Source: Defluviimonas aquaemixtae (lineage in GTDB: Bacteria > Pseudomonadota > Alphaproteobacteria > Rhodobacterales > Rhodobacteraceae). Taken from it: DNA of 37,434 bases. Positions 2,936-19,199 of the stretch are shown here, one piece after another. The notes under the pieces were generated by a model. It did not search any database. It was not told the origin of the DNA and saw only the letters and a list, made by a program, of their open reading frames with translations. The position numbers and the translations under genes are program-made. Numbering within the stretch: position 1 is the first letter of the stretch; every line of letters starts with the position of its first letter. Where the stretch lies: contig NZ_OMOQ01000008.1 in the NCBI RefSeq assembly GCF_900302475.1, forward strand, positions 1 through 37,434, read 5' to 3'.

Positions 2936-3748
2936 TCAGCGTTTGTCATCCTCTGATTGTTGAGACACAAATCGCTCAAGCTCCTCGTCGGAGATGGGTA
3001 CTGAGTGCTCTGACGCGGGATAGGCCCCGCGTTTTACATCCGCGTCGAACTCTTTGAATGCGCCGATGCGTTCTTTCTGAAGCCGGTCCAATTCGCTTCG
3101 GAAATCGCGATACGTCTTGGCATGACGCGGTTTGTGACCGCGCGTGTATCCCAGCACGTCCTCGGCAAATAGATACTGCGCATCGGCATGAGGACCGGCC
3201 CCCATCCCGAGAAGAACCAGCTTGGTCCGCTTGGCGATCTCGGCAGCGACACGGTCGGGCACAACCTCTAGCTCGGCCCCAAAACATCCTATGTCTTCAA
3301 GCGCCTTCACGTGCCTGAAGACCTCGAGCGCGCTCTCGGCCGTTTTTCCAACCGCCTTGAACCCGCCGGTCCAGGTGGCCTTCGACGGAATCAATCCAAC
3401 ATGGCTCACTACCGGAATTCCATCATCCGACAAGGCTTTGATCGTACTGAGCGACGAGGCGCAATAGACGCAATCGCCGCCAACCTGCATCGCGCGATGC
3501 GCGGCGCGCTGGTAATCTTCCTGGGTGACCAATTCCCCATAGAGAAGGCCGACCTGGACAAAACAATTGCCTGCCGCTTCGCGCATCTCGGGTGTCCACA
3601 CCGGGTCGATGATCGACAGCATGTCGATGCCGGCCTCGGCCGCGGCCGCGGCCTCGTCCAGGGTATCGACATAGAGCATGGAAAGCGTGCGCTTGCCTTT
3701 GAGCGCGCGGATGTCCGCGACCGTCGGCCGCTTGTGATAGTGTCCCAT
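2936..3748 (-). CDS. Divergent PanB-like (ketopantoate hydroxymethyltransferase family) protein
   Basis: A 270-residue TIM-barrel protein whose second half aligns with PanB: GIPVVSHVGLIPSK at 110-123, GGFKAVGK at 128-135, then GAELEVVP with Glu161 in the place of the catalytic Glu, and GMGAGPHADAQ at 181-191. PanB adds a hydroxymethyl group from methylene-tetrahydrofolate to 2-oxoisovalerate. Here the VGDSLGM-like metal motif is reduced to SIIDPVW (Asp48). The segment that normally holds a Mg-binding Asp reads QVGLLYGE, and the KIEGG-type metal and substrate segment reads VYCASS. A standard pantothenate role is therefore unlikely. It starts at an ATG preceded by GGAGGAAG and is the last gene of the moc-like operon, 16 bases after the reductase. 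It may handle a one-carbon unit or another product of the oxygenase; this is inference. Confidence 0.72.
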   Translation of the reverse strand: MGHYHKRPTVADIRALKGKRTLSMLYVDTLDEAAAAAEAGIDMLSIIDPVWTPEMREAAGNCFVQVGLLYGELVTQEDYQRAAHRAMQVGGDCVYCASSLSTIKALSDDGIPVVSHVGLIPSKATWTGGFKAVGKTAESALEVFRHVKALEDIGCFGAELEVVPDRVAAEIAKRTKLVLLGMGAGPHADAQYLFAEDVLGYTRGHKPRHAKTYRDFRSELDRLQKERIGAFKEFDADVKRGAYPASEHSVPISDEELERFVSQQSEDDKR

Positions 3749-3764
3749 TCTTCCTCCGCATCGC

Positions 3765-4958
3765 TCAGGCCGCCCGGAGCAGTTTCTTCATGTTGTGCGA
3801 CGGATCCGACAAGAGCGCCGGGTTGATTTCGGATCCGATTAGCCGTTGCGCAATCTTGATGTCTTTCGCCACGGTATTCCCCGGGCCGAGACCCGCCGCC
3901 CCGTTAAGCCTGTCTTGTCCGTCCAGAAAAAACAGGATCTGGGCTTGGTTTCCGAGCGCACGGATCGCTGACGGATCCCCTGACGTATTGCCGACCCCCT
4001 GGCGTCCCAGATCGTACTGATCTGACCAGAACCAGATCGGTACATCGAACTGCGCGTCGCTACCGGCAAGATTTCGTCCTGCCATCTCGCCCTGCGCCCG
4101 CGCGTTTTGCCAGGTTTCATACCGTCGGTACGTGCCACCGGATGTCTTCACAGAAGCACAGTCGCCTGCGGCGTAGATCAACGGGTCATCCGTCACGAGG
4201 CTGTCATCGACACATATTCCGTTCTGCACGCTCAGTCCCGCCGCTTCGGCTAGTTCGACGCTAGGCACTACTCCAATAGCGGCCACGATAAGATCGGCCT
4301 CGAATATCCGCTCCTTGTCCAGTACCACCGTGTTCTCGGCACATAGCACGACGCTGGCGTCACAGATGATCTGGACGCCCTGTTCGCGATGCCGGTTCGC
4401 CAGTGCAGCAACCAAGCCGCGCGGGACATTCCGCCCAAGCGGACGTGGACCGGCTTCGAGAACCGTAACCCCTGCGCCGCGCGCAGAGAGAAGCGCCGCG
4501 AGCTCCAGCCCGATGAGCCCGGCACCCACGATGACAACGCGCGTACCCGAAGCCGCTGCACGATATGTGGTCCGGGCGTCCGCGACCGTCCGTAGGACCT
4601 TCGCGTTCTCTCCGCCAGGGCAACTCAAGGCTCGCGGCCGCGCACCTGTCGCGAGGAGCATTTTCTCGTAAGGCATCGACGTTCCGTCCGAGAGCCGCAC
4701 CTTGCGTTCAGCGCGATCCAGTTGGGTAACGGAAATACCGGTTTGAAGGTTGATCGCCTTCTCGGCCAACGCCTCCGGGTTGGTAATGGGTTTCTCAATT
4801 GCACCGGTCTCGTCGGGTTTCGAAAGTGGCGGTCTTTCATAAGGCGGTACGGGCTCATCACCGATCACGGAGATTGCACCCTCGTATCCCGCGTCTCGTG
4901 CCGCAAACGCAGCGCGTATCCCGCATTCACCGGCGCCGATGATGGCGATCCCCGCCAT
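3765..4958 (-). CDS. FAD/NAD(P)-dependent ferredoxin reductase (MocF-like role)
   Basis: A 397-residue flavoprotein of the rhodocoxin/putidaredoxin reductase type, which passes electrons from NAD(P)H to a small iron-sulphur protein. The FAD Rossmann motif GAGECG lies at 8-13, followed by the PYERPPLSK segment (39-47) usual for these reductases. LLATGARPR is at 101-109, a second nucleotide-binding motif VGAGLIG at 144-150, and the FAD-contacting AAGDCASV in the C-terminal half. Its ATG is separated from the TGA of the ferredoxin gene by a single base, so the two are co-translated. With the ferredoxin and the di-iron oxygenase it forms a complete three-component electron chain, matching the role of MocF in rhizopine degradation. 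Confidence 0.88.
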   Translation of the reverse strand: MAGIAIIGAGECGIRAAFAARDAGYEGAISVIGDEPVPPYERPPLSKPDETGAIEKPITNPEALAEKAINLQTGISVTQLDRAERKVRLSDGTSMPYEKMLLATGARPRALSCPGGENAKVLRTVADARTTYRAAASGTRVVIVGAGLIGLELAALLSARGAGVTVLEAGPRPLGRNVPRGLVAALANRHREQGVQIICDASVVLCAENTVVLDKERIFEADLIVAAIGVVPSVELAEAAGLSVQNGICVDDSLVTDDPLIYAAGDCASVKTSGGTYRRYETWQNARAQGEMAGRNLAGSDAQFDVPIWFWSDQYDLGRQGVGNTSGDPSAIRALGNQAQILFFLDGQDRLNGAAGLGPGNTVAKDIKIAQRLIGSEINPALLSDPSHNMKKLLRAA

Positions 4959-4959
4959 G

Positions 4960-5271
4960 TCAGATCTCGATAAATACGCGGTCGCCTTCGACCTTGACCG
5001 GATAAGTGTTCAGATTGACACAGACCGGCGCGCGCTTCGCCTCGCCGGTGCGATAGTCGAACTGCCCGTTATGCTTTGGGCATTCGATCACGTAGTCCAT
5101 CACCAGACCGTCTTCGAGATGCACCTGTTCGTGGGTGCAGAGCCCGTCCGTACAAAAAAACTCATCGTTCGGACTTCTATAGATCGCGAAGGTGCGATCG
5201 CCGTGGTCGAAGCGTATCAGGTCCTCTTCATCCACATCGTCCATTCCGCAGGCATCGATCCACTCAGCCAT
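4960..5271 (-). CDS. mocE: MocE-type Rieske [2Fe-2S] ferredoxin
   Basis: A 103-residue single-domain Rieske protein that would carry electrons from the reductase to the oxygenase. Cluster ligands are Cys45-x-His47 and Cys64-x2-His67, within CTHEQVHLEDG and IECPKHNGQFD. The acidic surface and the EDGLVMDYVIECPKH stretch match the MocE subfamily. The frame extends upstream to 5367, but the ATG at 5271 has a strong GGGGAGG ribosome site just before it and gives the expected N-terminus, so it was chosen. It sits between the desaturase-like gene (22 bases upstream) and the reductase (1 base downstream). Confidence 0.9.
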   Translation of the reverse strand: MAEWIDACGMDDVDEEDLIRFDHGDRTFAIYRSPNDEFFCTDGLCTHEQVHLEDGLVMDYVIECPKHNGQFDYRTGEAKRAPVCVNLNTYPVKVEGDRVFIEI

Positions 5272-5293
5272 ACTGTTGTCCTCCCCTGTATAG

Positions 5294-6373
5294 CTATTCG
5301 GCCGGGACGCTAAGCGCCTGTTCATGCAAGTCTTCCCGATAGGGACGCGCCGATCCGGGCAGTTCACGCTTGACGAAAAAATCCTCGTAGCGAAGCTGCC
5401 GCTTCAGAGCGGGCCAGATTTCCCGATAGGCATCGAGGATCGAGGTATTCGGCGCCGGCAGGTCGTGCTTGATCTTCTCGTGCAACTCCGGAAGCCGGTG
5501 ATAGGGCACCATCGGGAACATGTGGTGCTCGACGTGATAGTTCATGTTCCAGTAGATGAAGCGGCTGATCGGGTTGACGTAGACTGTGCGACTGTTCAGC
5601 CGGTGGTCGAGCACGTTTTCAGCAAGGCCTGCGTGCTGCATGATCCCGGTCATCACATGGTGCCAGGCGCCATAGAGCCGCGGCAAACCAATCACCATAA
5701 GCGGCAGGATCGAATGCATTGCGACGGCGAGCACGATGGTCGCGAGGTAGATCAGCACCCAGACGCGCGCCACGCCGATGACTTTGTGCTGTTCCTGCTC
5801 GGGGATGAAGGTCGCCTCTTCGGAATCGAGATGACCAGCGGCGTTCATGATCATACGCATCCAGCCGTTCAACGCATCGACGATGCCGAAGAAGTTCAGG
5901 AAGATGCGGAACAATGCCGGCGGCCGCATCGCGACAATCTCGGGATCACGGCCGACGATGATCGTGTCGGTGTGATGCCGCGCATGGCTCCAGCGCCACG
6001 TGACCGGGTTGCGGATCATGCAGAAGGACGCGATCTGATAGATCACGTTGTTCATCAACGGCGTCTTGAAGGCGGTGCCATGCCCGCATTCGTGCCACCG
6101 GCTGTCCATCGCCGAACCGTAGAGCACGCCGTAAGCCAGCCAGAACGGAGCCGACCACCAAGACGGCCAGAGCGCGATGCCAATTCCCGCAATCAGGATC
6201 ATTGACCCAAACAGGATGACAGCATCCCGGATTGCGGGTTGGTCCGAGCGCTGCATCAGCGCCTTCATCTCTTTGCGAGGAATGTCGGTGTGATACCACT
6301 CGGCGGTCGCCAGCCCCGTCTCGACGGCACGCTCGGCATCCGGACCGAGCAGTGAATAGTCGCGCTTCGTCAT
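5294..6373 (-). CDS. mocD: Membrane di-iron oxygenase of the fatty acid desaturase superfamily (MocD-like)
   Basis: A 359-residue membrane protein with the three histidine boxes of the desaturase/hydroxylase superfamily: HECGH at 94-98, HARHH at 130-134 and HVEHH at 280-284. Hydrophobic segments lie near 50-70, 75-90 and 205-230. In Rhizobium, MocD with MocE and MocF is reported to be needed for demethylating the rhizopine 3-O-methyl-scyllo-inosamine, and this gene is followed by exactly such a ferredoxin and reductase. A methyl-ether oxygenase acting on an inositol derivative is therefore the best guess; a true lipid desaturase is the alternative. The start at 6373 was preferred over 6394 because GGGAGGAG precedes it closely. 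The gene is divergent from a LacI-type regulator, which probably controls it. Confidence 0.85.
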   Translation of the reverse strand: MTKRDYSLLGPDAERAVETGLATAEWYHTDIPRKEMKALMQRSDQPAIRDAVILFGSMILIAGIGIALWPSWWSAPFWLAYGVLYGSAMDSRWHECGHGTAFKTPLMNNVIYQIASFCMIRNPVTWRWSHARHHTDTIIVGRDPEIVAMRPPALFRIFLNFFGIVDALNGWMRMIMNAAGHLDSEEATFIPEQEQHKVIGVARVWVLIYLATIVLAVAMHSILPLMVIGLPRLYGAWHHVMTGIMQHAGLAENVLDHRLNSRTVYVNPISRFIYWNMNYHVEHHMFPMVPYHRLPELHEKIKHDLPAPNTSILDAYREIWPALKRQLRYEDFFVKRELPGSARPYREDLHEQALSVPAE

Positions 6374-6408
6374 GGTCTCCTCCCGGAGTATCATCTCCTG
6401 TGAGATAC

Positions 6409-6432
6409 ATTGAGACCAGCGATGCTCTCAAT
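6409..6432. promoter_or_regulatory. Inverted repeat, candidate operator
   Basis: Perfect arms ATTGAGA (6409-6415) and TCTCAAT (6426-6432) are spaced by 10 bases. The repeat lies 36 bases upstream of the mocD-like start, in the 131-base gap shared with the divergent lacI-type gene. It is a candidate binding site for that regulator. Confidence 0.4.
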
Positions 6433-6459
6433 ACTCGGCATTGCTTTTCGCATCAAAAT

Positions 6460-6486
6460 ACATCATTAATCAGCCTATGATGATGT
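6460..6486. promoter_or_regulatory. Inverted repeat, candidate operator near the regulator start
   Basis: Perfect arms ACATCAT (6460-6466) and ATGATGT (6480-6486) are spaced by 13 bases and end 18 bases before the ATG of the divergent lacI-type gene. The position suits autoregulation. The arm sequence differs from the other repeat in the same gap and from the palindromes near 18.1 and 19.2 kb. Confidence 0.4.
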
Positions 6487-6504
6487 GAATACCTCAGCTT
6501 TGGA

Positions 6505-7539
6505 ATGAAGACACGTCGCCCCACTTTGAAGGATCTGGCAGAGGCTGCGGGGGTCGGTGTGGCCACCGTTGACCGCGTTCTCAACGAGCGCCCGAACGTT
6601 CGTGCCACAATGGTCGAGCGCGTGCTCGCCGCTGCTGAAGACATCGGGTATCCGACGAAGAAGCTGGACGCCATCAAGCTCGATGCTGCGCGGCCGGTTG
6701 TCAGATTGGGCATTGTCCTGCACAAGCCGTCCCAGGAGTTTTATCGCAATTTCGCCAGCGAACTCGAGATCGCCGTCAAGAACCGTGCCGAGGTTCGCGG
6801 ACGGTGTGAAATCAGGTTCTCTTCGTCTCAAGCGCCATCCGAGTTCGCCGCCGAACTCGTTGAAGCCTCCAAGTCGGCCGAAGTGCTTGCGACGTCCGCC
6901 ATCAACCACCCCACGCTGTCGCAAACGATCCGCGCCTTGCAGGACGATGGTAAGCCGGTGTTCTCGCTCCTTAATGATGCCGCGTCGGGCGTGCAGCAAA
7001 GCTATGTCGGCCTCGACAATGTCAAGGTCGGTCGTATCGCCGGGTGGATGATCGCAACGCAGGTTCGTGAGCCGGGCAAGGTCGCCGTCTTCATCGGCGG
7101 GAACCGCTGGCACGGTCATATTCTGCGAGAGACGGGTCTTAGAAGCTATCTCAGAGACTACGCTCCACACCTCCAGCTTCTGGATGCCATCGTGAACTTG
7201 GAGACGCGGCAGGTCACCTACGAGGCGACGCTCGATCTCGTCGACCGCCATCCCGATCTTCGTGGAATCTACGTCGCGGGCGGTGGCATGGAAGGCGCTA
7301 TCGCCGCGTTAAGAGAGGTGAGACCGCCCGGCAAGGTAGCGCTGGTCGTCAACGAACTTACAAACGAGAGCCGCAAGGCGCTCTCAGACCGATATGTCAG
7401 CCTTGCGATCGCGACGCCGCTCCCTGACATCTGTCGATACCTAGTCAGCTTGATGATCGAGGCAGCGCGAAGCGGGCCCAGTGAAACATCGGGCCAGCAT
7501 TATCTCACCCCGCAGCTTCTCGTGCCCGAGTCTCTCTAA
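6505..7539 (+). CDS. LacI-family transcriptional regulator (moc side)
   Basis: A 344-residue repressor-type protein. The N-terminal helix-turn-helix (about residues 6-50) contains TLKDLAEAAGVGVATVDRVLN; the third helix reads TVDR where many LacI proteins have TVSR. The rest is a periplasmic-binding-protein-like sensor domain with FIGGNRWHGH and YVAGGGMEGAI. It is strikingly similar to the regulator at 18138-19169, with long shared stretches such as SQEFYRNFA, PVFSLLND and GNRWHGH. It is divergent from the mocD-like operon and its stop lies 2 bases from the convergent iolB stop, so it links the moc-like and iol operons. The likely ligand is an inositol, inosose or derivative; this is inferred from context only. 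Confidence 0.88.
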   Translation: MKTRRPTLKDLAEAAGVGVATVDRVLNERPNVRATMVERVLAAAEDIGYPTKKLDAIKLDAARPVVRLGIVLHKPSQEFYRNFASELEIAVKNRAEVRGRCEIRFSSSQAPSEFAAELVEASKSAEVLATSAINHPTLSQTIRALQDDGKPVFSLLNDAASGVQQSYVGLDNVKVGRIAGWMIATQVREPGKVAVFIGGNRWHGHILRETGLRSYLRDYAPHLQLLDAIVNLETRQVTYEATLDLVDRHPDLRGIYVAGGGMEGAIAALREVRPPGKVALVVNELTNESRKALSDRYVSLAIATPLPDICRYLVSLMIEAARSGPSETSGQHYLTPQLLVPESL

Positions 7540-7541
7540 TC

Positions 7542-8348
7542 CTACTTGTCTCTTTCCATGATCCAATCCACCTCCGGCGCGGGCACGAAGCGCCACTTGC
7601 GCAGGGGGCCGGCCATGACGTTGAGATAGTACATCTCGAACCCGTAGGGCGCGCCGCAGGGATGGTGCCCGCGCGGGACGAGCACCACGTCGCCGTCGGC
7701 GACCGCCATGGTCTCGTCGAGCCGCCCGTCGTCGGTGTAGACCCGCTGGACGCCGAAGCCCGAAGCCGGGTTCAGCCGGTGGTAGTAGGTTTCTTCCAGA
7801 TAGGTGATGCGCGGAAAGTCGTCCTCGTCATGGCGGTGGCTCGGATAGGACGACCAGTGGCCCGCAGGCGTGAAAACCTCAGTGACGAGGAGGCTGTCGG
7901 CGTAATCCTCCGCCTCCATCGCGATGTTGTTGATGTGCCGCGTGTTTGTGCCCTTGCCGCGCTCGGTCAGGGTGATGCCGTCGGGCCCGATGCGGCGCGC
8001 TTCGTGGCCGCCCTTGCCTGGCGCAGAGCAGACGGCGAGGACGCAATCGGTCTCGGCCTTCGCCTCCCACTCTGTGCCGTTGGGCAAATAGAGGCAATGC
8101 GGCGGCGTCCTCTCGAAGACGTCCATGCGCGCGCCGAGAACGCCCCAGTCCTTGCCCGCGCCGGTGAACGCCGCCTTGCCCTCCACCATCACTAGGATGA
8201 CCTCGCGGTCACGCGTCGCCTCGCCCACCGCCTCGCCCTTCCGCAGCCGGTAGAGCGAGAAGCCGACGTAACGCCAGCCTGCGTTTTCGGGCGTGATCTC
8301 ATGGACCTTGCCATGGGCTCCGAAGGGCTTTCTGAGAAGATCGGGCAT
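7542..8348 (-). CDS. iolB: 5-deoxy-glucuronate isomerase
   Basis: IolB isomerises 5-deoxy-D-glucuronate to 5-dehydro-2-deoxy-D-gluconate in inositol degradation. The 268-residue protein has the bicupin pattern: an N-terminal cupin with GWRYVGFSLYRL, and a C-terminal cupin with WSSYPSHRHDEDDFP and the second metal segment VLVPRGHHPCGAPYGFEMYYLNVMAG. Length matches the family. An in-frame TTG exists at 8363 overlapping the iolE stop, but the ATG at 8348 follows a GAGG site and gives the expected N-terminus (MPDLLRKP). It is the last gene of the inositol operon and converges on the lacI-type gene with a 2-base gap, leaving no room for a dedicated terminator. Confidence 0.95.
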   Translation of the reverse strand: MPDLLRKPFGAHGKVHEITPENAGWRYVGFSLYRLRKGEAVGEATRDREVILVMVEGKAAFTGAGKDWGVLGARMDVFERTPPHCLYLPNGTEWEAKAETDCVLAVCSAPGKGGHEARRIGPDGITLTERGKGTNTRHINNIAMEAEDYADSLLVTEVFTPAGHWSSYPSHRHDEDDFPRITYLEETYYHRLNPASGFGVQRVYTDDGRLDETMAVADGDVVLVPRGHHPCGAPYGFEMYYLNVMAGPLRKWRFVPAPEVDWIMERDK

Positions 8349-8359
8349 GACGTCAGTCC

Positions 8360-9265
8360 TCAATCTTCAATCGCCAGGCCGGAGCGGCCACAGATTTCAC
8401 GGATATGTTCATATCCGAGCTTGGAATACTCAAACGGAGGAGCTTTGGCGGGGTCCTGTTCGGCCTCGACCACTATCCAGCCGTCGTAGTCCTGTGCCTT
8501 CAGAAGGTCGGTGATCGCCTGGAAATCAATACAACCGTCGGCATCTCCCGGCACCGAGAACACCCCGCCTGCCACCGCATCGAGAAAGCTGCCGTTCTCG
8601 GCATGGATCCTGTCCAGAACCGACTGACGGACGGTCTTGAAATGCACGTGGCTCACGCGGTTCCCCCACTTATCGAGGACGGCAGCCGGGTCAGCCCCTG
8701 CAAAATGCAAATGCCCCGTGTCATAGAGCAGGGTGACCTCCGGTGACGATCCCTCCATCAGCCAGTCGATGTCCTCAGCATCCTGAACCATCGCGCCCAT
8801 GTGGTGGTGATAGGCCAGCACCATCCCCGTGTCCGAGACACGTTTGGCAAGTTCGGACAGCTTGGCGGCATAGCCCGTCACCTCGTCCCGGCTCAGCTTC
8901 GGGCGCTGGCTGACGGGCGTGTTCATCATGCCCTGGACGGTGTTGGAGCATTCCGCATAGACGATGCAGGGAGCGTTCAACGCCACGAATTGTTCGACCT
9001 GCTGGCGGATTGCGCCAAACTCCTCGTCTGCTGGGGCGAGCATGAGGTTTCCAGAACACCAGCCACCACACAGAGACACGCCATAACGGTCGAGATAGGC
9101 GCGCAGGCCCTCGGTATCGGCAGGCATGCGGCGGCCCCGCTCGACCCCCGCATAGCCGATACGCGCCGCATCCTCCATTGCGCCTTCGGTCGTGTACTCC
9201 CAGGTCAGTTCCGGCAGGTCGTCGTTCTGCCAAGCAATCAGGGAGATACCGATTTTGACGCCCAT
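8360..9265 (-). CDS. iolE: Inosose dehydratase
   Basis: IolE dehydrates 2-keto-myo-inositol to a cyclohexane-trione (3D-trihydroxy form), the second step of the pathway. The 301-residue protein is a xylose-isomerase-like TIM barrel of typical IolE length. Landmarks are IGISLIAWQNDDLPEL near the start, AYHHHMGAMVQ, LLYDTGHLHFAG and a C-terminal GWIVVEAEQDPAKAPPFEY. The MocC protein of rhizopine clusters belongs to the same family. The ATG at 9265 overlaps the iolD stop by one base (TGATG), indicating coupling; an upstream extension of the frame to 9364 was rejected for that reason. Confidence 0.94.
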   Translation of the reverse strand: MGVKIGISLIAWQNDDLPELTWEYTTEGAMEDAARIGYAGVERGRRMPADTEGLRAYLDRYGVSLCGGWCSGNLMLAPADEEFGAIRQQVEQFVALNAPCIVYAECSNTVQGMMNTPVSQRPKLSRDEVTGYAAKLSELAKRVSDTGMVLAYHHHMGAMVQDAEDIDWLMEGSSPEVTLLYDTGHLHFAGADPAAVLDKWGNRVSHVHFKTVRQSVLDRIHAENGSFLDAVAGGVFSVPGDADGCIDFQAITDLLKAQDYDGWIVVEAEQDPAKAPPFEYSKLGYEHIREICGRSGLAIED

Positions 9266-11094: not shown

Positions 11095-11098
11095 CTTC

Positions 11099-12991
11099 CT
11101 ATCCCCTTGACTTGTCCCACGCGGCGCAGAGCCGCGCGTAGTTCTCGGCCATTTGCGCAACAGCGTCTGCGTCGGTCATTCGGCCGGTCATCCACGCCTC
11201 GGCGGAACCGGCGAAGATCGTCCGCCCTAAAGCGAACCCTTTCACCAGTGGATATTGTGCGGCCGCGTCGAAGCTGGCGGCGAGCTTGTCTTCGCTCTCA
11301 CCAAGCCCAAGGATCACGATGCCTCGCGTATTGGGATCGTTTTTTTCGATCGTGTCGCAGGTGAGTTGCCACGCCCGCGATGTCAGCATCGGCTCAAGCT
11401 TCCACCAGTCGGGATAGACGCTGTTGTCGTAGAAACGCTGGATGACTTTGGCGGTCGTGTTGTCCTCCACATTACCGACCTTCGAAGGGATGACCTCAAG
11501 CAGAAACTCCAGGCGGTTTCGACGACAGGCGTTGAAAAGTCTGACGATCGTCGCCTCCTGATCGGCCCAAGTCGCCGCATCATCGTCGGGGTGGCAGAAA
11601 CAAAGTACCTTGACCACCTGATCGCGCGGCCATTCTGCCAGCCCGCCGAAATCAGGTCCAATCTCGGGCTCGAGCATCAGCGGCCGCGAGCCCGGCCATT
11701 CCACCGGACGCCCCACCCAGAGGCCGGTGCCGGCCGTCTTGTAGAGTGCATCGCGTCCGAGACGCCCGTCACAGAGTAGACCGTGCCCCGGCTTGCCGGC
11801 GGCGACGCTTTGAACGGCGTCGAGGCAGAGTTCCTTGAACCGGCCGATCATCTCAGGCGTCGCGCCATCGATCTCCTCCAGCTGCACACGGTGATCGAAG
11901 GCGAAGATGCGAACCTCGGGCCAGTCGATATTCCGGTTCGTCGCCCAATGAATCTGTTCGAGCGCTTCGTCGTTCCTCAGATCCGGGCGCTTGATGCCCC
12001 GCTCTAAGAAGAATTGCAGTTCATCCCAGCTTGGATATGCCGGCGTGCAGCCGTGGCGTGACACGGCGAAAGCTCCGCAGGCGTTTGCGTATTTCAGCGC
12101 AGTCGGCCAATCCTCTCCATCGAGCCAGCCTTTGAGCAGCCCCGCCATGAAGCCGTCGCCGGCGCCCAAAACGTTGAAGACTTCGATCGGGAAGCCCGGG
12201 CCGGCCTCGGCATCGTCAAGGTTGTCTGGCACGTCGCCTGTGATGGCAACAGCGCCCTTCGCACCGCGTTTGCATACGAGCGTGGCGTCAGTGACAGCGC
12301 GCACAGCGCGAAGCGCGGCGATCGTGTCGGTAGCCCCGCCGGCGATGTGGAATTCCTCTTCGGTTCCCACGATCAGGTCGAAGTAGTGCAGCGTGGACTG
12401 CAGTTTCTCGGTGACCTTGGCACTTTCAACAAAGCGGCTTTCGCCTTCCCCGTGCCCGGAGACGCCCCAGAGGTTCGGGCGATAGTCGATATCGAGTGTG
12501 GTCTGTATGCCCGCCCCACGCGCAATCTCCAGCGCCTTGAGCGTCGCCGCCTCTACGTCAGGATGCGACAGGTGCGTCCCGGAGGCGACGACGGCGCGCG
12601 CCTCGCGGATGAAGTTCGGGTCAATATCATCTGCCGTCAGGCCCATGTCGGCGCAGTTTTCCCGGTAGAAGATCAGCGGGAACCTTTCCTGATCTCGGAT
12701 GCCCAAAAGCACCAGCGCGGTAAGTCGCTCGGGGTCAGTCTTGACGCCGCGCGTGTCCACGCCTTCGCGTTCAAGTTCTTCACGGATGAACCGGCCCATG
12801 TGCTCGTCGCCGACGCCGGTGATGACTGCGGCTCTCAATCCCAGCCGCGCAGTGCCGCACGCCGTATTTGTCGGGCTGCCGCCGATGTACTTGTCGAAGG
12901 ACCGCATGTCTTCCAGGCGCCCGCCAATCTGCACGCCATAGAGATCCACCGAAGATCGGCCAATGGTGATGAGATCGAGAGTTTTCGCCAT
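11099..12991 (-). CDS. iolC: IolC-DUF2090 fusion: 5-dehydro-2-deoxygluconokinase with aldolase-like domain
   Basis: A 630-residue two-domain protein. Residues 1 to about 330 form a PfkB/ribokinase-type kinase, with the N-terminal GGSPTNTA motif at 37-44 and the catalytic GAGDGF at 276-281 (base Asp279); this part phosphorylates 5-dehydro-2-deoxygluconate. Residues from about 340 to 630 are a DUF2090 domain, an aldolase-like barrel with VRIFAFDHRVQLEEI, GLLCDGRLG, LFNACRRNRLEFLLEVI and KGFALGRTIF. Such fusions are known in proteobacterial inositol clusters and are annotated as doing the following aldolase (IolJ) step as well. No separate iolJ is seen in the window, which fits. The kinase role is secure; the aldolase role is by family only. 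Confidence 0.92.
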   Translation of the reverse strand: MAKTLDLITIGRSSVDLYGVQIGGRLEDMRSFDKYIGGSPTNTACGTARLGLRAAVITGVGDEHMGRFIREELEREGVDTRGVKTDPERLTALVLLGIRDQERFPLIFYRENCADMGLTADDIDPNFIREARAVVASGTHLSHPDVEAATLKALEIARGAGIQTTLDIDYRPNLWGVSGHGEGESRFVESAKVTEKLQSTLHYFDLIVGTEEEFHIAGGATDTIAALRAVRAVTDATLVCKRGAKGAVAITGDVPDNLDDAEAGPGFPIEVFNVLGAGDGFMAGLLKGWLDGEDWPTALKYANACGAFAVSRHGCTPAYPSWDELQFFLERGIKRPDLRNDEALEQIHWATNRNIDWPEVRIFAFDHRVQLEEIDGATPEMIGRFKELCLDAVQSVAAGKPGHGLLCDGRLGRDALYKTAGTGLWVGRPVEWPGSRPLMLEPEIGPDFGGLAEWPRDQVVKVLCFCHPDDDAATWADQEATIVRLFNACRRNRLEFLLEVIPSKVGNVEDNTTAKVIQRFYDNSVYPDWWKLEPMLTSRAWQLTCDTIEKNDPNTRGIVILGLGESEDKLAASFDAAAQYPLVKGFALGRTIFAGSAEAWMTGRMTDADAVAQMAENYARLCAAWDKSRG

Positions 12992-12993
12992 GA

Positions 12994-13998
12994 CTAGCCA
13001 AGGACTTCGGAAAGTTTGATTGCACGTCCATCTTCGACCGATTTCAGCGCGGCGTCGGCCAAGGCGAGCGCCATCAAGCCATCCTGGCCGGTGGTCGGCG
13101 TCGGAGCCCGGTTCGATACAGCATCCACGAAAGCCGCGATCTCGTTGGCATAGGCATTTTCATAGCGCGACATGAAGAAGTTGAGGAGCGGCGGGCGCAG
13201 ATATCCCTTGTCATCCGCGATCTCGATATTCGCTTCGCGATGGTTTTCGGCAGATACCGAACCCTTCGAACCCAGCACTTCAATGCGCTGGTCGTACCCG
13301 TATGCGGCACGACGCGTGTTGGTGATCGTGCACTGCTTACCGCTGGCGGTAGTCAGGATGACGTTGATGCTGTCGAAATCGCCCAAGTCACCGATTTTGG
13401 GGTCGGTGAGGACCGACGCCGCGGCCTGAACCGTGTCGACCTCTTCGCCGAGCAGCCAGCGCGCGACGTCGAAATCGTGGATCGTCATATCGCGGAATAT
13501 GCCGCCCGAGACCTTGATGTACTCATAGGGCGGCGGCCCGGGGTCGCGGCTCGTCAGCGTGATCATCTCAACGTCGCCGATGCGGCCGACGTCGATCGTC
13601 TGCTTGAGCGCCATGAAATCGGGATCGAAACGGCGCTGGAATCCAACCATAAGGATCGCCGCCTCCGCCTCTACGGTCTTCAGACAGGCTTTCACGCGGG
13701 CAAGGCTCAGGTCGACCGGCTTCTCGCAGAAGACCGCCTTGCCGGCCTTCGCGAACTGCTCAATCAGGTCGGCGTGTGTAGGGGTCGGCGTACAGATTGC
13801 CACAGCATCGACGTCCTCGCTCGCCGCTATCTCTTCGATGCTGCGGATGTCGCAGCCATAGGTGTCGGCCACTTTCTTCGCAGTCTCCGTCACCGGGTCA
13901 GCGATGGCGACGAGATGGGCACCCGGCGTGGAAGTCACCGCCTTTGCGTGAACCTGACCGATGCGACCAGCGCCCAGGATTGCAAAATTTACCGTCAT
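12994..13998 (-). CDS. iolG: Inositol 2-dehydrogenase-like oxidoreductase (Gfo/Idh/MocA family)
   Basis: A 334-residue NAD(P)-dependent dehydrogenase. The Rossmann motif GAGRIG is at 9-14, the family EKP motif at 92-94, and the catalytic segment FRDMTIHDFDVARW runs around 168-181 with Asp170, Asp175 and His174. IolG oxidises myo-inositol to 2-keto-myo-inositol, the first step of the pathway. MocA of rhizopine catabolism belongs to this same family, so a modified inositol or inosamine substrate is possible. The start at 13998 follows GGAGGACAAT; the open frame reaches 14037 but lacks a better signal. It ends 2 bases before iolC begins. A 141-base gap separates it from the upstream transporter ATPase gene. 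Confidence 0.9.
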   Translation of the reverse strand: MTVNFAILGAGRIGQVHAKAVTSTPGAHLVAIADPVTETAKKVADTYGCDIRSIEEIAASEDVDAVAICTPTPTHADLIEQFAKAGKAVFCEKPVDLSLARVKACLKTVEAEAAILMVGFQRRFDPDFMALKQTIDVGRIGDVEMITLTSRDPGPPPYEYIKVSGGIFRDMTIHDFDVARWLLGEEVDTVQAAASVLTDPKIGDLGDFDSINVILTTASGKQCTITNTRRAAYGYDQRIEVLGSKGSVSAENHREANIEIADDKGYLRPPLLNFFMSRYENAYANEIAAFVDAVSNRAPTPTTGQDGLMALALADAALKSVEDGRAIKLSEVLG

Positions 13999-14139
13999 AT
14001 TGTCCTCCGTTTTAGTGGGGGGGGCGTTTGGCCACATCTGTTCCGTCAGCAGCCGACGGAGGGAGACACGCCGGCCGCTTTGGGAGGAGCTATAGCGCTC
14101 GCAGAGTCTAATCGTTGGCTTGGATAGGAACTCCCGGCG

Positions 14140-14970
14140 TCACGCGGCCTCCTCGTATTCCGGCTGGGTCTTGGCGCCAGTGATGTAAGCCACGACGTCT
14201 TCGCCGTTGGTCTCTTCTTTCTTCAGGTTGGCGCAGATCCGTCCCCGCCGGAACACAACGATGCGGTCCACCAGATCCATGACCTGCCGCATGTTGTGGC
14301 TGACCAGGATCAGCGGTTCGCCCGCTTCCTTGAGAGTCCGGACGATGTTCTCGACCTGCGCGGTCTCCTGGACCCCGAGCGCCGCGGTCGGTTCGTCCAT
14401 GATCGTCAGTTTCGAGTGGAACGTCGCCGTCCTCGCGATTGCCACGCACTGCCGCTGACCGCCCGACATCCGCTCGATCGTGCCGCGGATGTTGGGAATC
14501 TTTACGCCGGTTTTCTCGAGTGCATCGAGTGTCCGCTGCCTCATCGCCTTGTAGTCGAGCACCGAGAAGGGCCCGAGCTTCCATTTGATGATCTCGCGGC
14601 CCAAGAAGAGGTTGTCCGGCACGTCGAGTTGGTCGGCCAGAGCGAGGGTCTGGAAAACAGTCTCGATCCCGGCGTTGCGGGCTTCGAGCGGGCCGGCGAA
14701 GTGCACCGGTTTGCCGTCGAAGATGATCTCGCCGCGGGTCCGCTGTTCAACCCCGGTAATCTGCCGAACGAAGGTCGATTTCCCAGCCCCGTTGTCACCC
14801 ATGATCGCGACGTGTTCGCCCTTGCGGAGCGTGAAGTTGGCGCCTTCGAGCGCATGCACGCCCCCGTAGTGCTTGGTCAGGTCCCTTGTCTCGAGGATGA
14901 TATCCCCCAAGGCGGCATCCGAGTTCGGTGCGCTGGCCCCCGAGATATTGGTCTGCATATCGCTTGCCAT
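14140..14970 (-). CDS. Sugar/inositol ABC transporter, ATP-binding protein
   Basis: A 276-residue single-domain ATPase. Walker A GDNGAGKST is at 58-66, the signature MSGGQRQ in the middle, and Walker B LTIMDEPTAALG follows. Most ribose- or inositol-type importers in this family use a double ATPase of about 500 residues; here there is only one domain, as in the FrcA fructose transporter, so it would act as a homodimer. The ATG at 14970 has GGGAGGAAACC in front; the longer frame to 15018 was rejected. It follows the permease gene with a 14-base gap and powers uptake with the permease and binding protein next to it. Confidence 0.9.
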   Translation of the reverse strand: MASDMQTNISGASAPNSDAALGDIILETRDLTKHYGGVHALEGANFTLRKGEHVAIMGDNGAGKSTFVRQITGVEQRTRGEIIFDGKPVHFAGPLEARNAGIETVFQTLALADQLDVPDNLFLGREIIKWKLGPFSVLDYKAMRQRTLDALEKTGVKIPNIRGTIERMSGGQRQCVAIARTATFHSKLTIMDEPTAALGVQETAQVENIVRTLKEAGEPLILVSHNMRQVMDLVDRIVVFRRGRICANLKKEETNGEDVVAYITGAKTQPEYEEAA

Positions 14971-14984
14971 GTCGGTTTCCTCCC

Positions 14985-16073
14985 TCAGGCCTTCGCGGCC
15001 GCGCGCTGTTGGCGCCACTGGTCGAGGACCACCGCCCCGATGATGATCGCGCCCATCGCCATCAACTGGTAAAATGCGTCGAGCTTGACGAACGTGAACC
15101 CGGACTGAATGACACCAAAGACCATGGCTCCCAGGACGGTGCCGATGATCGAGCCGCGCCCGCCGGTTAGGCTGACCCCGCCGATCACTGCCATGGCGAT
15201 GGCATAGAGTTCATAGAACTGCCCCATGCCCGCCTGCGCCGTCAGGTTTTTCGAGCTCAGCACGATTGCGGCAAAGGCGGCCAGCATCGAGGCGATCATG
15301 TAGACGAGGATCTTGTGGCGGCGGACATTGATACCCGACATCCGCGCGGCTTCTTCGTTGGAACCAATGGCATAGGTGTGCTTCCCGTAAACCGTATAGC
15401 GCATGATCAGGTGCAGCAGGATCGCCAGTCCGATGAACCATACGACGGGCATCATGCCAGTCCCGATCCAAGCGTATTCAGGCGTTGGGAAGGACACTGG
15501 CTGGCCCTTGGTCCACCACTGCGAAATGCCGCGGCAGATCAAGAACATGCCTAGCGTGGCGATGAAGGGCGGGATACGCGCAAAGGCGATGAAAAACCCG
15601 TTGATCGACCCGATCAAGGCCCCGAATAAGAGACCGACGATCAGTGGCACGATGACTGGTAAGTCCATCGCCCACAGACCAAATACGGCCTTCGGGTTCG
15701 GATTGCCGTTGACCAATTCGGTCTGGGCAAAAGACATAACGATCATCGCTGTCGCCCCGACGAGCGGTCCGGACGACAAGTCGATGCCGCCCGAGATGAT
15801 CACTTGTGTGACGCCGAGTGAAATGATCCCGATGATCGCGACCTGCAGAATGATGATCTTGATCCGGGCCATGTTCAGGATCGTGCCATCGCGCGCTTCG
15901 TTAAAATCGAACAGCATGCTCTGGCCGTTCATGTACGGCAGGATCTGTCCCAATGCCTCGAACAGGAGAATGATGAGAACCAATGCGAGAAAGACGTTGA
16001 ACTCATTGGGCAAGGCGCGCTTCGACTTGTCGAACGTGAGCCCGCCTATCCCATGCGATGCCTGATCAGCCAT
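14985..16073 (-). CDS. Sugar/inositol ABC transporter permease (RbsC/FrcC type)
   Basis: A 362-residue integral membrane protein of the branched-chain/ribose permease family. Hydrophobic helices are spread along the length, starting with VFLALVLIILLFEALGQIL near residue 28. Family-typical segments include VIISGGIDLSSGPLVG, EEAARMSGINVRRHK (the ATPase coupling loop) and AVIGGVSLTGGRGSIIGTVLG. It would import the operon's substrate, presumably an inositol or derivative, together with the upstream binding protein and downstream ATPase. The ATG at 16073 is preceded by GGGAGGAGACGG. A strong hairpin separates it from the binding-protein gene. Confidence 0.92.
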   Translation of the reverse strand: MADQASHGIGGLTFDKSKRALPNEFNVFLALVLIILLFEALGQILPYMNGQSMLFDFNEARDGTILNMARIKIIILQVAIIGIISLGVTQVIISGGIDLSSGPLVGATAMIVMSFAQTELVNGNPNPKAVFGLWAMDLPVIVPLIVGLLFGALIGSINGFFIAFARIPPFIATLGMFLICRGISQWWTKGQPVSFPTPEYAWIGTGMMPVVWFIGLAILLHLIMRYTVYGKHTYAIGSNEEAARMSGINVRRHKILVYMIASMLAAFAAIVLSSKNLTAQAGMGQFYELYAIAMAVIGGVSLTGGRGSIIGTVLGAMVFGVIQSGFTFVKLDAFYQLMAMGAIIIGAVVLDQWRQQRAAAKA

Positions 16074-16107
16074 TTCCGTCTCCTCCCAGAAGATCGCCTA
16101 GTTCTTC

Positions 16108-16142
16108 TTGCGGGAGCGGCGCATCTAGCGCCGCTCCCGCAA
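16108..16142 (-). promoter_or_regulatory. Strong intra-operon hairpin behind the binding-protein gene
   Basis: Two perfect 15-base arms, TTGCGGGAGCGGCGC (16108-16122) and its complement (16128-16142), enclose a 5-base loop, 18 bases past the stop of the binding-protein gene and 34 bases before the permease ATG. There is no T tract after it, so full termination is unlikely. Hairpins at this place in other importer operons protect the upstream message, giving more binding protein than permease; that role is inferred. Confidence 0.75.
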
Positions 16143-16160
16143 TCGTATACCACGCGCAAG

Positions 16161-17105
16161 TCAGTTCTTCGCGAGGTAGTCGTCGATGTTGGCCGGCGTC
16201 ACGAGTTCGAACGGGATGTATACCTTCTGATCCACTTCTTCGCCGCGTGCGAGCTTCAGCGCCGCGTCTAGCGCTCCCGAGCCCTGACCCGCGGCGTTCT
16301 GGAAGACAGTGACGTCGAGTTCGCCGGCCTGCATCGCGGACAAGGCATCCTGCGTTGCGTCAATGCCGCCGACCACGACATCGTCCATAGAGATACCGGC
16401 GGCCTTCATAGCCTGAATGGCTCCGATGGCCATCTCGTCGTTGTTGGCGATGACAGCGTCAAACTGCTGACCGGAGGACAGCCAGTTGGTCATCAGGCTG
16501 GTCGCCTGTTCGCGGGACCAGTTCGCCGTCTGACGGTCGATCTCCTCGATTTGGACGGCACACTGACCATTGGCGATGACGTCGTCGATGTCCTGCGTCC
16601 GCTGAACGGCAGCCTGGTTCGACAGTTCACCCATCATGACGTAGACGCGCGCCGGATCGGTACCGTTGGCTGCGAGGATATCGCAGATCTCGATGGTCTC
16701 GAGCGTGCCGGATTCGCGCTCATCCGAGGCCACGAATGCTTGGTTGTCGGGCAGCGTGTCGACATTGATCGGCTCGCGGTTCACGTAGACTAACGGAACG
16801 CCAGCCGCTTCAGCAGCTGCAGTCATCGCTTCGGTGGCAGACGTGTCCACCGGATTGACGATGATCGCGTCGACGCCGGAGGCAACGAAGTTGTTGATCT
16901 GGTCGAGCTGGCGCGCCACGTCGTTCTGGGCGTCCTCGATCTGGACCTCGACATCGTCCATTCCCTCGGCCAGTTCCTGGATTCCGTTACGAAGAACGGT
17001 CAGGAAGTTGTCGTCAAAGAGCGCCATCGACACGCCGATTGTTTCGGCCATGGCACTGGTGGACAGTAGCGACGCGAGCGCGGCCGCGGTCAGAGTCTTT
17101 TTCAT
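16161..17105 (-). CDS. Periplasmic sugar/inositol-binding protein
   Basis: A 314-residue substrate-binding protein of the ribose/galactose-binding (Peripla_BP_4) type. The signal peptide MKKTLTAAALASLLSTSAMA is followed by the likely cleavage site before ETIGV. The mature part begins with a strand typical of this fold, then DDNFLTVLRNGIQE, with ligand-pocket landmarks DAIIVNPVDTSA, VYVNREPI, NNDEMAIGAIQAM and VVGGIDATQDAL. It would capture the substrate in the periplasm for the adjacent permease and ATPase. MocB of rhizopine clusters is also a binding protein of this class, but the sequence alone does not name the ligand. AGGGAGGAA precedes the ATG. Confidence 0.92.
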   Translation of the reverse strand: MKKTLTAAALASLLSTSAMAETIGVSMALFDDNFLTVLRNGIQELAEGMDDVEVQIEDAQNDVARQLDQINNFVASGVDAIIVNPVDTSATEAMTAAAEAAGVPLVYVNREPINVDTLPDNQAFVASDERESGTLETIEICDILAANGTDPARVYVMMGELSNQAAVQRTQDIDDVIANGQCAVQIEEIDRQTANWSREQATSLMTNWLSSGQQFDAVIANNDEMAIGAIQAMKAAGISMDDVVVGGIDATQDALSAMQAGELDVTVFQNAAGQGSGALDAALKLARGEEVDQKVYIPFELVTPANIDDYLAKN

Positions 17106-17183
17106 TGGGTTCCTCCCTCTGTCGGTGTCCGGCGCACCAATTCCCTTGCCGGAAGCCCCGCCACGGGGCGGTTGCTCCTCACC

Positions 17184-17999
17184 TTAAACGGCGTGCGCCT
17201 GAATTTGCGAGGAAATGAAGTCGAACGAGCGCTTGATTTCCGAATAGGGATCGGCGTGCTGATGCATTTCAGGCGAAAAACATTCGTAAGAGATCGGACC
17301 GTCGTACCCGGCTGCCAGCAAAGCTGCGATCTGTTCGATGTTTCCAAGCCGGTCCTTCTCGTCGACGAGAACACGATGCTCGTCTTCCATCTGCCCCACA
17401 GACAGCGTCGGATCGACAACGCCGGAAATGTGCACGATGCCGGTCATCTCGGGATAGATCGGACCACCATCGGCCAGCGCGTGGTGGAAGGTGTCGTGGA
17501 CGATCTTGAAATGGCCCTGGCCCCCGATTGAGGCAATCATGTCTACAAGTTCGGTCTTCGACCGTAGTGAAGAGCGCTGAAATCCCAGGGGTTCGACAAG
17601 CGCAGTCATTTCCGCGTCCTGCAGGAGCGGAAGCACGCCCTTGAGAGCGATCCGCAGGTTCGCCTGCCGCTCGCCATTCCCAAGCGCCGTGCCATCGTTG
17701 CGCGGTATGAGGCTGATCGTTTCGGCACCGGAGGCTTTGGCAGTTGCGATCAGCGCCTCGACCGCAACTTTACGCTCTGCGGTCCAGTCGTTGAATGGAT
17801 AGACTTGGCTCAGCCCGACCAGGCGAAGCCCCTTGTCGGATGCAATGCGTCCTGCCTCGGCTGGATTCAGGTCATCGAATAAGGCGTGGGCGATGTCATT
17901 GCGCACCTCGACCCCAACGCAGCCAAGCTTCGCGGCAAGATCGAGAAATGCCACGTACCCGATATTGGGCACGGTCATATGGTTTAGCGCTGTCTGCAT
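17184..17999 (-). CDS. IolI-like sugar isomerase/epimerase (TIM barrel)
   Basis: A 271-residue xylose-isomerase-like TIM barrel. Likely metal ligands are Glu136 (VEPLGF), Asp169 or His168 (IVHDTFHHA), His190 (IVHISGVVD) and Glu239 (YECFSPE). The order HDTFHH, then DEHRV, then a GYDGPISYECFSPE end resembles IolI, which isomerises 2-keto-myo-inositol to the 1-keto form, and less strongly IolH or hydroxypyruvate isomerase. It is the first gene of the inositol operon, preceded by GAGGGAGGG before the ATG at 17999; the open frame to 18071 is probably not used. The IolI assignment is plausible but unproved; the metal-dependent isomerase fold is secure. Confidence 0.8.
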   Translation of the reverse strand: MQTALNHMTVPNIGYVAFLDLAAKLGCVGVEVRNDIAHALFDDLNPAEAGRIASDKGLRLVGLSQVYPFNDWTAERKVAVEALIATAKASGAETISLIPRNDGTALGNGERQANLRIALKGVLPLLQDAEMTALVEPLGFQRSSLRSKTELVDMIASIGGQGHFKIVHDTFHHALADGGPIYPEMTGIVHISGVVDPTLSVGQMEDEHRVLVDEKDRLGNIEQIAALLAAGYDGPISYECFSPEMHQHADPYSEIKRSFDFISSQIQAHAV

Positions 18000-18089
18000 T
18001 TTGCCCTCCCTCGCCGGATGTTCTGACCGGCGATTGGCTGCACGTTTGCGCTGTAACTCAGATTCAGTCAATCCATCGAGGTGTAAATG

Positions 18090-18105
18090 GCGTCATCCAT
18101 GACGC
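18090..18105. promoter_or_regulatory. Palindrome in the inositol operon promoter region
   Basis: GCGTCATCCATGACGC is a perfect palindrome with 7-base arms around CC, about 90 bases upstream of the IolI-like start. Its CGTCA and TGACG halves are the same words as in the palindromes at 18121 and 19184, but in the opposite order. It may be part of the operator array or a chance companion. Confidence 0.45.
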
Positions 18106-18120
18106 ATTACTGACCGCAGA

Positions 18121-18138
18121 ATGACGTTTTAACGTCAT
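18121..18138. promoter_or_regulatory. Candidate LacI-type operator upstream of the inositol operon
   Basis: ATGACGTTTTAACGTCAT has perfect 8-base arms around TT. It lies 122 bases upstream of the operon's first ATG and touches the last base of the lacI stop codon. It shares the form TGACG-N6-CGTCA with the palindrome in front of the regulator gene at 19184, so one protein probably binds both. Confidence 0.7.
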
Positions 18139-19183: not shown

Positions 19184-19199
19184 TGACGATTTATCGTCA
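19184..19199. promoter_or_regulatory. Candidate autoregulatory operator of the iol-side LacI regulator
   Basis: TGACGATTTATCGTCA has perfect 7-base arms around TT and begins 14 bases upstream of the TTG start, adjacent to the ribosome site. It has the same TGACG-N6-CGTCA form as the site at 18121. Confidence 0.7.

Follow-up and report, generated by a model that had tools for sequence, protein, structure and literature searches.

The 37,434-base contig NZ_OMOQ01000008.1 of Defluviimonas aquaemixtae (hereafter, the window) carries a putative three-component membrane oxygenase system of the MocDEF type, a gene for a protein resembling ketopantoate hydroxymethyltransferase (KPHMT; the gene is referred to as panB-like) and an inositol degradation unit with its own ATP-binding cassette (ABC) importer. 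The oxygenase operon runs along the minus strand from position 6394 down, in the order mocD-like, mocE, ferredoxin reductase and panB-like, with intergenic gaps of 19, 1 and 16 nucleotides (nt), while the second unit, also on the minus strand, comprises ten genes: lacI-2, tim, binding protein, permease, ATPase, iolG, iolC-DUF2090, iolD, iolE and iolB. Another regulator gene, lacI-1, is divergent from mocD and stops 2 nt short of the end of iolB. The reading favored here, at a probability of roughly 0.6, is that the cluster serves for the uptake and breakdown of an O-methylated inositol; what is new is the regular pairing of the panB-like gene with membrane di-iron oxygenases of two families.

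The oxygenase module shows the hallmarks of MocDEF-type systems, i.e., a membrane enzyme of the FA_desaturase type, containing three histidine boxes and encoded in one operon with a MocE ferredoxin and a reductase. The histidine box residues (H101, H105, H137, H140, H141, H287, H290 and H291) are invariant in all 105 aligned sequences, and the MocD-like protein of the window is 70.1% and 72.4% identical to two rhizobial proteins labelled mocD or MocD-like. The preliminary description of this region, which had such a trio standing beside a complete inositol operon with its own importer, was right as to the genes present, with MocE and the iol enzymes scoring over their curated cut-offs (Table 1). 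The word “complete”, though, applies no further than the IolC-aldolase step: IolG, IolE, IolD, IolB and IolC (5/5) pass their NCBIfam equivalog cut-offs, whereas no iolA was seen among the window proteins scanned, a search extending neither to the ABC ATPase and permease, the frame at 594-1997 and the frames beyond 22.8 kb (for which open frames were just listed) nor to the rest of the genome. The identities of the iol enzymes come from curated models, and their activities are predicted. As a second, more distant IolD (48% identity) is encoded at C1:1064902, the window cluster may not be the sole inositol route of this genome.

For the importer, fold alone does not single out a ligand class, as ribose- and glucose-binding proteins tie with 4yo7, the closest solved relative of the binding protein by sequence, whose ligand is presumably myo-inositol. 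A profile search with the TIM-barrel protein placed 4hgx and 2q02 on top (8e-57), and IolI (1i60) at 1.7e-10. The idea that the TIM-barrel gene might be a part of the demethylase was mostly rejected: genomes of the family have it on contigs without a listed MocD as well, and so does one of the control iolD loci (L187), so it seems tied to the importer/iol unit instead.

Table 1. Genes and candidate operator sites of the oxygenase-inositol region, in window coordinates.
Feature	Coordinates	Strand	Basis or remark
PanB-like protein with the KPHMT fold but without its metal ligands; one-carbon step linked to tetrahydrofolate proposed	2936..3748	-	
MocF-like ferredoxin reductase	3765..4958	-	Pyr_redox_2 and Reductase_C; HcaD-type but under the HcaD cut-off
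MocE-family Rieske [2Fe-2S] ferredoxin	4960..5274	-	TIGR02377, 173.2 bits vs. cut-off of 136.15
MocD-like membrane di-iron oxygenase, proposed O-demethylase	5294..6394	-	PF00487, 5.5e-34
Candidate LacI-1 operator TGATGTATTTTGATG, mocD/lacI-1 gap	6451..6465	-	
LacI-family regulator 1	6505..7539	+	PF00356, PF13407
IolB, 5-deoxy-glucuronate isomerase	7542..8363	-	TIGR04378, 342 > 205
IolE, inosose dehydratase	8360..9364	-	TIGR04379, 373.2 > 290, match from residue 36; actual start probably downstream of the one listed
IolD, trihydroxycyclohexane-1,2-dione hydrolase	9265..11160	-	TIGR04377, 905.1 > 715
IolC fused to DUF2090 aldolase	11099..12991	-	NF047869, 689 > 600
IolG, inositol 2-dehydrogenase	12994..14037	-	TIGR04380, 421.4 > 355
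ABC transporter ATPase	14140..15018	-	Open frame, conserved neighbor of the binding protein; named by eye
ABC transporter permease	14985..16073	-	Open frame, conserved neighbor; named by eye
Sugar/cyclitol-binding protein of the importer	16161..17105	-	4yo7, E 9.5e-61, 43% identity
IolI-type TIM-barrel protein, proposed inosose isomerase (tim)	17184..18071	-	PF01261
Palindrome TGACGTTAAAACGTCA, candidate LacI-2 operator upstream of tim	18122..18137		
LacI-family regulator 2	18138..19169	-	
Palindrome TGACGATAAATCGTCA, candidate LacI-2 operator upstream of lacI-2	19184..19199		

Recurrence of the oxygenase module beside inositol genes

Conservation of this linkage, which the preliminary description had left to a wider search, was assessed by searching the MocD-like protein against 198 genomes of the family and fetching wide neighborhoods. 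Foreign MocD places at 65% identity or more numbered 26, and 25 of them (65–80% identity) were fetched, with G030, on a contig of 4.5 kb, being left out. At least one iol enzyme (≥60% identity) was present in 12 of the 25 neighborhoods, an importer or inositol-type binding protein alone (≥59% identity) in 6, three of which (L049, L053 and L056) end there at a contig edge, and a divergent iol operon in 1 (L041), leaving 6 with none of these within about 10 kb. The IolG, IolD and IolC domain neighboring the module in L041 score over their own cut-offs, yet are 49, 46 and 33% identical to those of the window; a second, divergent inositol operon therefore sits next to the same module there. Because the neighborhood recurs in other genera, the linkage is more than chance, and the gene order, which varies among genera (mocD diverges from lacI-tim-ABC-iol in several of them), points to selection and not just to a recent shared ancestor. 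A Marivivens plasmid has mocD, mocE and the panB-like gene without an intervening reductase gene, together with tim, the importer and iolGCDEB, while a record assigned to Ilumatobacteraceae (L148) combines a PanB-like protein and an alternative oxygenase (46% identical to a seed) with IolG (53%), IolD (61%) and PurU.

Second, divergent inositol-like clusters were also seen near the module at L034:1495-7397, L041:12724-19398, L097, L098, L105, L122, L123, L133, L143 and L158, and these contain an IolC-domain kinase, an IolB-like protein, a class II aldolase-like frame, an IolE-like protein and one or two Gfo/Idh genes, mostly with no IolD. On a plasmid of R. leguminosarum Vaf-108 (L197:5792-14984), sterol-desaturase-family and MocD-like genes are adjacent and accompanied by ABC and Gfo/Idh genes, with iolE and iolD divergent from them and close to a regulator of the MurR/RpiR type. 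The record titled Exiguobacterium profundum SSD5 (L139) has Rhodobacterales-like genes and an importer 68–78% identical to that of the window, which makes the organism name doubtful.

The PanB-like protein and its one-carbon neighbors

Although the PanB-like protein has the KPHMT fold (2-methylisocitrate lyase and other lyases and mutases being the folds that rank next), it does not pass the PanB equivalog model TIGR00222 (101.6 bits against a cut-off of 207.55). Of the PanB residues D45, D84 and E114, the Mg ligands, and K112 (E. coli numbering), D84 corresponds to G67 in at least 90% of 32 sequences and K112 to Y95 in all 32, with the D45 and E114 positions being variable or changed. It differs from true PanB, then, in its unconserved metal ligands and K112, in scoring far under the PanB cut-offs and in having demethylase-type genes for neighbors; the genome also has a PanB gene apart from this one, behind which a PanC-like frame was recognized by eye.

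Of the 76 PanB-like places in the 198 genomes (taken at E 1e-30 or better), 49 have a typed MocD place within 8 kb; in the other direction, a PanB-like gene is found within that distance at 18 of the 28 top MocD places, the window's own included. Of 13 fetched PanB-like loci without MocD (L077-L089), 8 have in its stead an FA_hydroxylase-like protein (PF04116), which belongs to another histidine-box membrane family; Pfam FA_hydroxylase matches were obtained in L056, L061, L086 and L089. A scan of named genomes, confined to the best 80 of at least 576 confirmed PanB-like relatives and hence no random sample, and with genes called by tblastn (>55 bits) with seeds from our own set, gave MocD-like proteins in 52 loci, FA_hydroxylase-like ones in 22 (a weak match in L166 included) and either of the two in 68. 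MocE was present in 67 of these loci, the reductase in 31, ABC genes in 47, IolG (≥45% identity) in 30 and another iol enzyme (≥45%) in 15, and the loci spread across Rhodobacterales, Hyphomicrobiales, Betaproteobacteria, Acidimicrobiia and one Anaerolineales record. In a quick PanB-like tree of 128 rows, 18 of them without a label and with several long branches, the nearest oxygenase type switches 13 times, at least 11 of these switches being forced by starred branches; as shuffling gives 27 switches on average, the oxygenase type is also clustered. Nothing relevant on PanB-like proteins in demethylation was found in the literature searched.

Genes of folate metabolism are also among the neighbors. 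PurU, the formyltetrahydrofolate deformylase, is encoded in 21 of the 80 loci, in 13 of them at full length (at least 249 bits) and in 8 partially (seven run into the border of the contig or of the piece fetched, and L134 has two short pieces), at 12 to 8,755 nt from the panB-like gene; the three copies checked (L101, L148 and L156) score over the PurU cut-off. By order, this amounts to 5 of 37 loci in Rhodobacterales, 12 of 28 in Hyphomicrobiales and 4 of 15 in others. The background is low: of 190 genomes from the class, 41 have PurU, with one match each, and 5 of 41 relatives have it, so that, by an estimate for genome sizes of 1–6 Mb, chance would place PurU within 9 kb in well under one case per 80 loci. 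FolD was found in 3 of the 80 loci, and purU and folD occur together in L137, L152 and L154. In L083, which reads mocE-tim-mocF-panB-like-folD-purU-iolG, folD and purU are directly behind panB-like, and in L099 and L101, near relatives that share the iolCDEB-lacI-mocDEF-panB-like order of the window, purU follows mocD-mocE-mocF-panB-like after 62 nt. Neither PurU nor MocE was found in any of 20 control iolD loci, a control that is weak on its own, as these loci were picked for having no MocD or PanB-like gene nearby, come from a single family (that of the window) and cover 378 kb vs. 1,306 kb.

Proposed route and rival explanations

A cyclitol would, judging by family and linkage, be taken up via the binding protein and ABC importer, after which the MocF-like reductase and then the MocE ferredoxin would relay electrons from NAD(P)H to the MocD-like di-iron enzyme; by family and context, this enzyme is expected to hydroxylate the O-methyl group, so that a one-carbon unit with the oxidation level of formaldehyde is released. 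The freed inositol could then be oxidized by IolG, isomerized by the IolI-type protein if needed, and passed on to IolE, IolD, IolB and IolC-DUF2090. The PanB-like protein, for its part, may transfer the one-carbon unit to tetrahydrofolate, with FolD and then PurU or Fhs releasing formate (PurU and FolD being found in the clusters of relatives, not in the window). Spontaneous condensation of formaldehyde with tetrahydrofolate has been judged unlikely to be an effective assimilation route in E. coli (PMC7073904), which leaves room for an enzyme. A folate-cleaving side activity is described for true PanB (PMC4814558).

That the substrate is an O-methylated cyclitol seems likely. Pinitol and other methylated inositols are familiar as osmolytes of plants. 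Among single compounds, pinitol is our tentative first choice, since an IolI-type isomerase suits D-chiro-inositol; ononitol, sequoyitol and others are possible. A tetrahydrofolate role for the PanB-like protein is quite conceivable, if short of even odds, and still more tentative is the wider proposal that a PanB-derived family, rebuilt around a lost metal site, accepts one-carbon units in a tetrahydrofolate-dependent way (methylene-tetrahydrofolate being made from formaldehyde or hydroxymethyl), working with at least two families of membrane di-iron demethylases of methylated cyclitols and sugars, and with PurU/FolD downstream. If the reading of the cluster is right, it puts a name to a bacterial cluster for methylated inositol breakdown (none was found in the literature searched, most subscription journals being outside its coverage), and the PanB-like protein would be an enzyme by which cells load folate with the one-carbon units that demethylation yields. 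Many database entries labelled “3-methyl-2-oxobutanoate hydroxymethyltransferase” would also seem to be misnamed.

Several observations weigh against this reading. Six of the 25 MocD neighborhoods (L033, L036, L039, L045, L054 and L057) have neither iol enzymes nor an importer within a range of about 10 kb, with IolD and tim lying farther along the same contig in L033, L036 and L039, and 10 of the 28 top MocD places lack a PanB-like gene within 8 kb. No oxygenase was recognized in 12 of the 80 PanB-like loci (L114, L116, L118, L125, L126, L132, L136, L138, L146, L151, L156 and L173), six of which come to about 3 kb or less from the end of their contig. The PanB-like protein retains H116 and E161, two residues whose part in PanB is probably played with the keto acid and not with folate. 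Enzymes of the MTTB family (trimethylamine methyltransferase-like) are corrinoid-dependent and not known to make formaldehyde, and a gene of this family, itself preceded by an FGGY kinase and sugar ABC genes, lies directly in front of the panB-like gene in L125 (7231-9789), which counts against a purely formaldehyde role; MTTB-family genes are near panB-like genes in L089 and L092 as well. To these should be added the low share of PurU in Rhodobacterales, the weakness of the iolD control, the non-random choice of the 80 loci and the lack of a PurU match in the window's own genome at E 1e-50, where two formate-tetrahydrofolate ligase genes (G000:C10:16222-17886, on a small contig, and C3:601044-602708) could stand in for it. 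Nor is there support from a supposed lack of glutathione formaldehyde dehydrogenase in this genome, for which the folate route would have been needed: this notion was rejected as an assembly artefact, since pieces matching TIGR02818 (positions 1-42 and 317-367) stop at the extreme ends of contigs C3, C11, C4 and C5 (L202-L205), the gene probably having been cut by the assembly. Such contig-end pieces, likely assembly-cut copies, could pass for absence.

The rival explanation that is the hardest to set aside, albeit still a somewhat unlikely one, concerns the PanB-like protein, which might act on the carbon skeleton as an isomerase or aldolase for a cyclitol or sugar product, leaving PurU to handle folate-bound units of other origin; the lyases and mutases ranking next by fold and the MTTB-family arrangement of L125 would agree with it. 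The PanB-like protein is, however, common to two oxygenase families, and it accompanies modules both with and without iol enzymes (the iol core at ≥45% being seen in just the 15 loci given above), which makes a single skeleton unlikely. Hydroxylation of the ring of a deoxy-inositol (e.g., quercitol) to inositol, with no methyl removed, is improbable, even though membrane di-iron enzymes of the MocD class do hydroxylate, context alone leaves the position open and linkage to inositol genes would be equally expected, as it leaves the PurU/FolD linkage, the tetrahydrofolate-using ancestry of the PanB-like partner and the MTTB-family neighbors in three loci without an explanation. Even less credibly, the MocD-like protein could desaturate or hydroxylate lipids and lie next to the iol genes by chance: the Pfam name FA_desaturase points that way, but the lipid desaturase models DesA and DesB, both with cut-offs of 500, give 19.8 and 40.2 bits, and importers and iol genes recur as neighbors in other genera.

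A rhizopine system, in which 3-O-methyl-scyllo-inosamine would be demethylated by MocDEF and deaminated ahead of the inositol pathway, does have precedent, as mocDEF are described as rhizopine genes (PMC10107442, PMC3538637), and mocD, mocEa and mocFa of R. etli show the same order along with a PanB homologue (this mocD being the 70.1% match above). It is nonetheless a poor candidate here: the regulators are LacI and not MocR, no aminotransferase is present among the window proteins scanned, and rhizopines, called rare in nature (PMC6668481), contrast with the wide taxonomic spread of PanB-like loci. With LacI taking the place of MocR, a neutral methyl-inositol fits better, and the inosamine branch of the preliminary description accordingly comes out as the weaker one.

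Relation to known systems and regulation

The mocDEF core cluster was known before, and the present reading extends the published MocDEF rhizopine model; demethylation followed by inositol breakdown, put forward in the preliminary description, is the best reading of the conserved context, but not a new idea (Bahar et al.). The window shares with the rhizopine genes mocCABRDEF the order of oxygenase, MocE ferredoxin and ferredoxin reductase and the proposed route into inositol breakdown, and differs from them in having LacI instead of MocR, an adjoining iol unit and importer, and a panB-like fourth gene (relatives also having PurU and FolD). The mocABCR genes with their MocR-type regulator are not what is found here, as both regulators are LacI, and the dehydrogenase and dehydratase are, by cut-off, IolG and IolE. 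The setting is thus indeed unlike the classical moc genes, as had been remarked, although the PanB-like protein turned out to be no mere oddity. Neither the plasmid matches listed for MocD nor the seven plasmid regions examined, one of which carried no annotation, included the proven rhizopine moc locus, that of S. meliloti L5-30.

Clusters of LacI (a FixV homologue), an epimerase and mocDEF have been reported in rhizobia, with an inositol-derivative signal suggested (PMC3538637). On plasmids of R. etli CIAT 652 (whose genes are named mocD, mocEa and mocFa), R. leguminosarum WSM2304 and R. johnstonii 3841, lacI and tim diverge from mocD-mocE-mocF-panB-like, much like the LacI and TIM-barrel genes here, a PanB homologue included; these three plasmids, however, have no adjacent iol operon, and the PanB homologue goes unmentioned in the portion of PMC3538637 consulted. 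With bacterial iol operons, the window has in common IolG, IolC, IolD, IolE and IolB over equivalog cut-offs and an IolI-type protein, whereas its own LacI pair, the oxygenase module within the cluster and the lack of iolA among the proteins scanned set it apart. The nicotine-breakdown operon purU-mabO-folD, whose oxidase makes methylene-tetrahydrofolate, likewise joins a demethylating enzyme to FolD and PurU, but relies on a flavin amine oxidase rather than a di-iron oxygenase and a PanB-like protein; in the part of that report available (PMC3891541), PanB is mentioned only as pantothenate-linked. A BtpA-family gene adjoins the panB-like gene at L118:3986-4828, together with sugar ABC genes and no recognized oxygenase.

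The two LacI paralogues noted previously are 55% identical, with the second beginning at 18138, the very end of the region first described. Exact matches to the motif TGACGNTAAANCGTCA lie upstream of lacI-2 and of tim, two in the whole window, and at up to two mismatches there are four strand-wise matches, a number reached in none of 100 shuffles. TGATGTATTTTGATG matches once in the window, with no match in 100 shuffles. Paralogous regulators with related operator half-sites might allow both units to be switched together. The upstream region of the window's own mocD has no full TGAYG-N6-CRTCA palindrome; stretches similar to TGATGTATTTTGATG are, by eye, present upstream of mocD in relatives, and the looser TGAYG-N6-CRTCA palindromes occur there in 14 of 52 relatives, against an expectation of 0.013 per 290-nt stretch.

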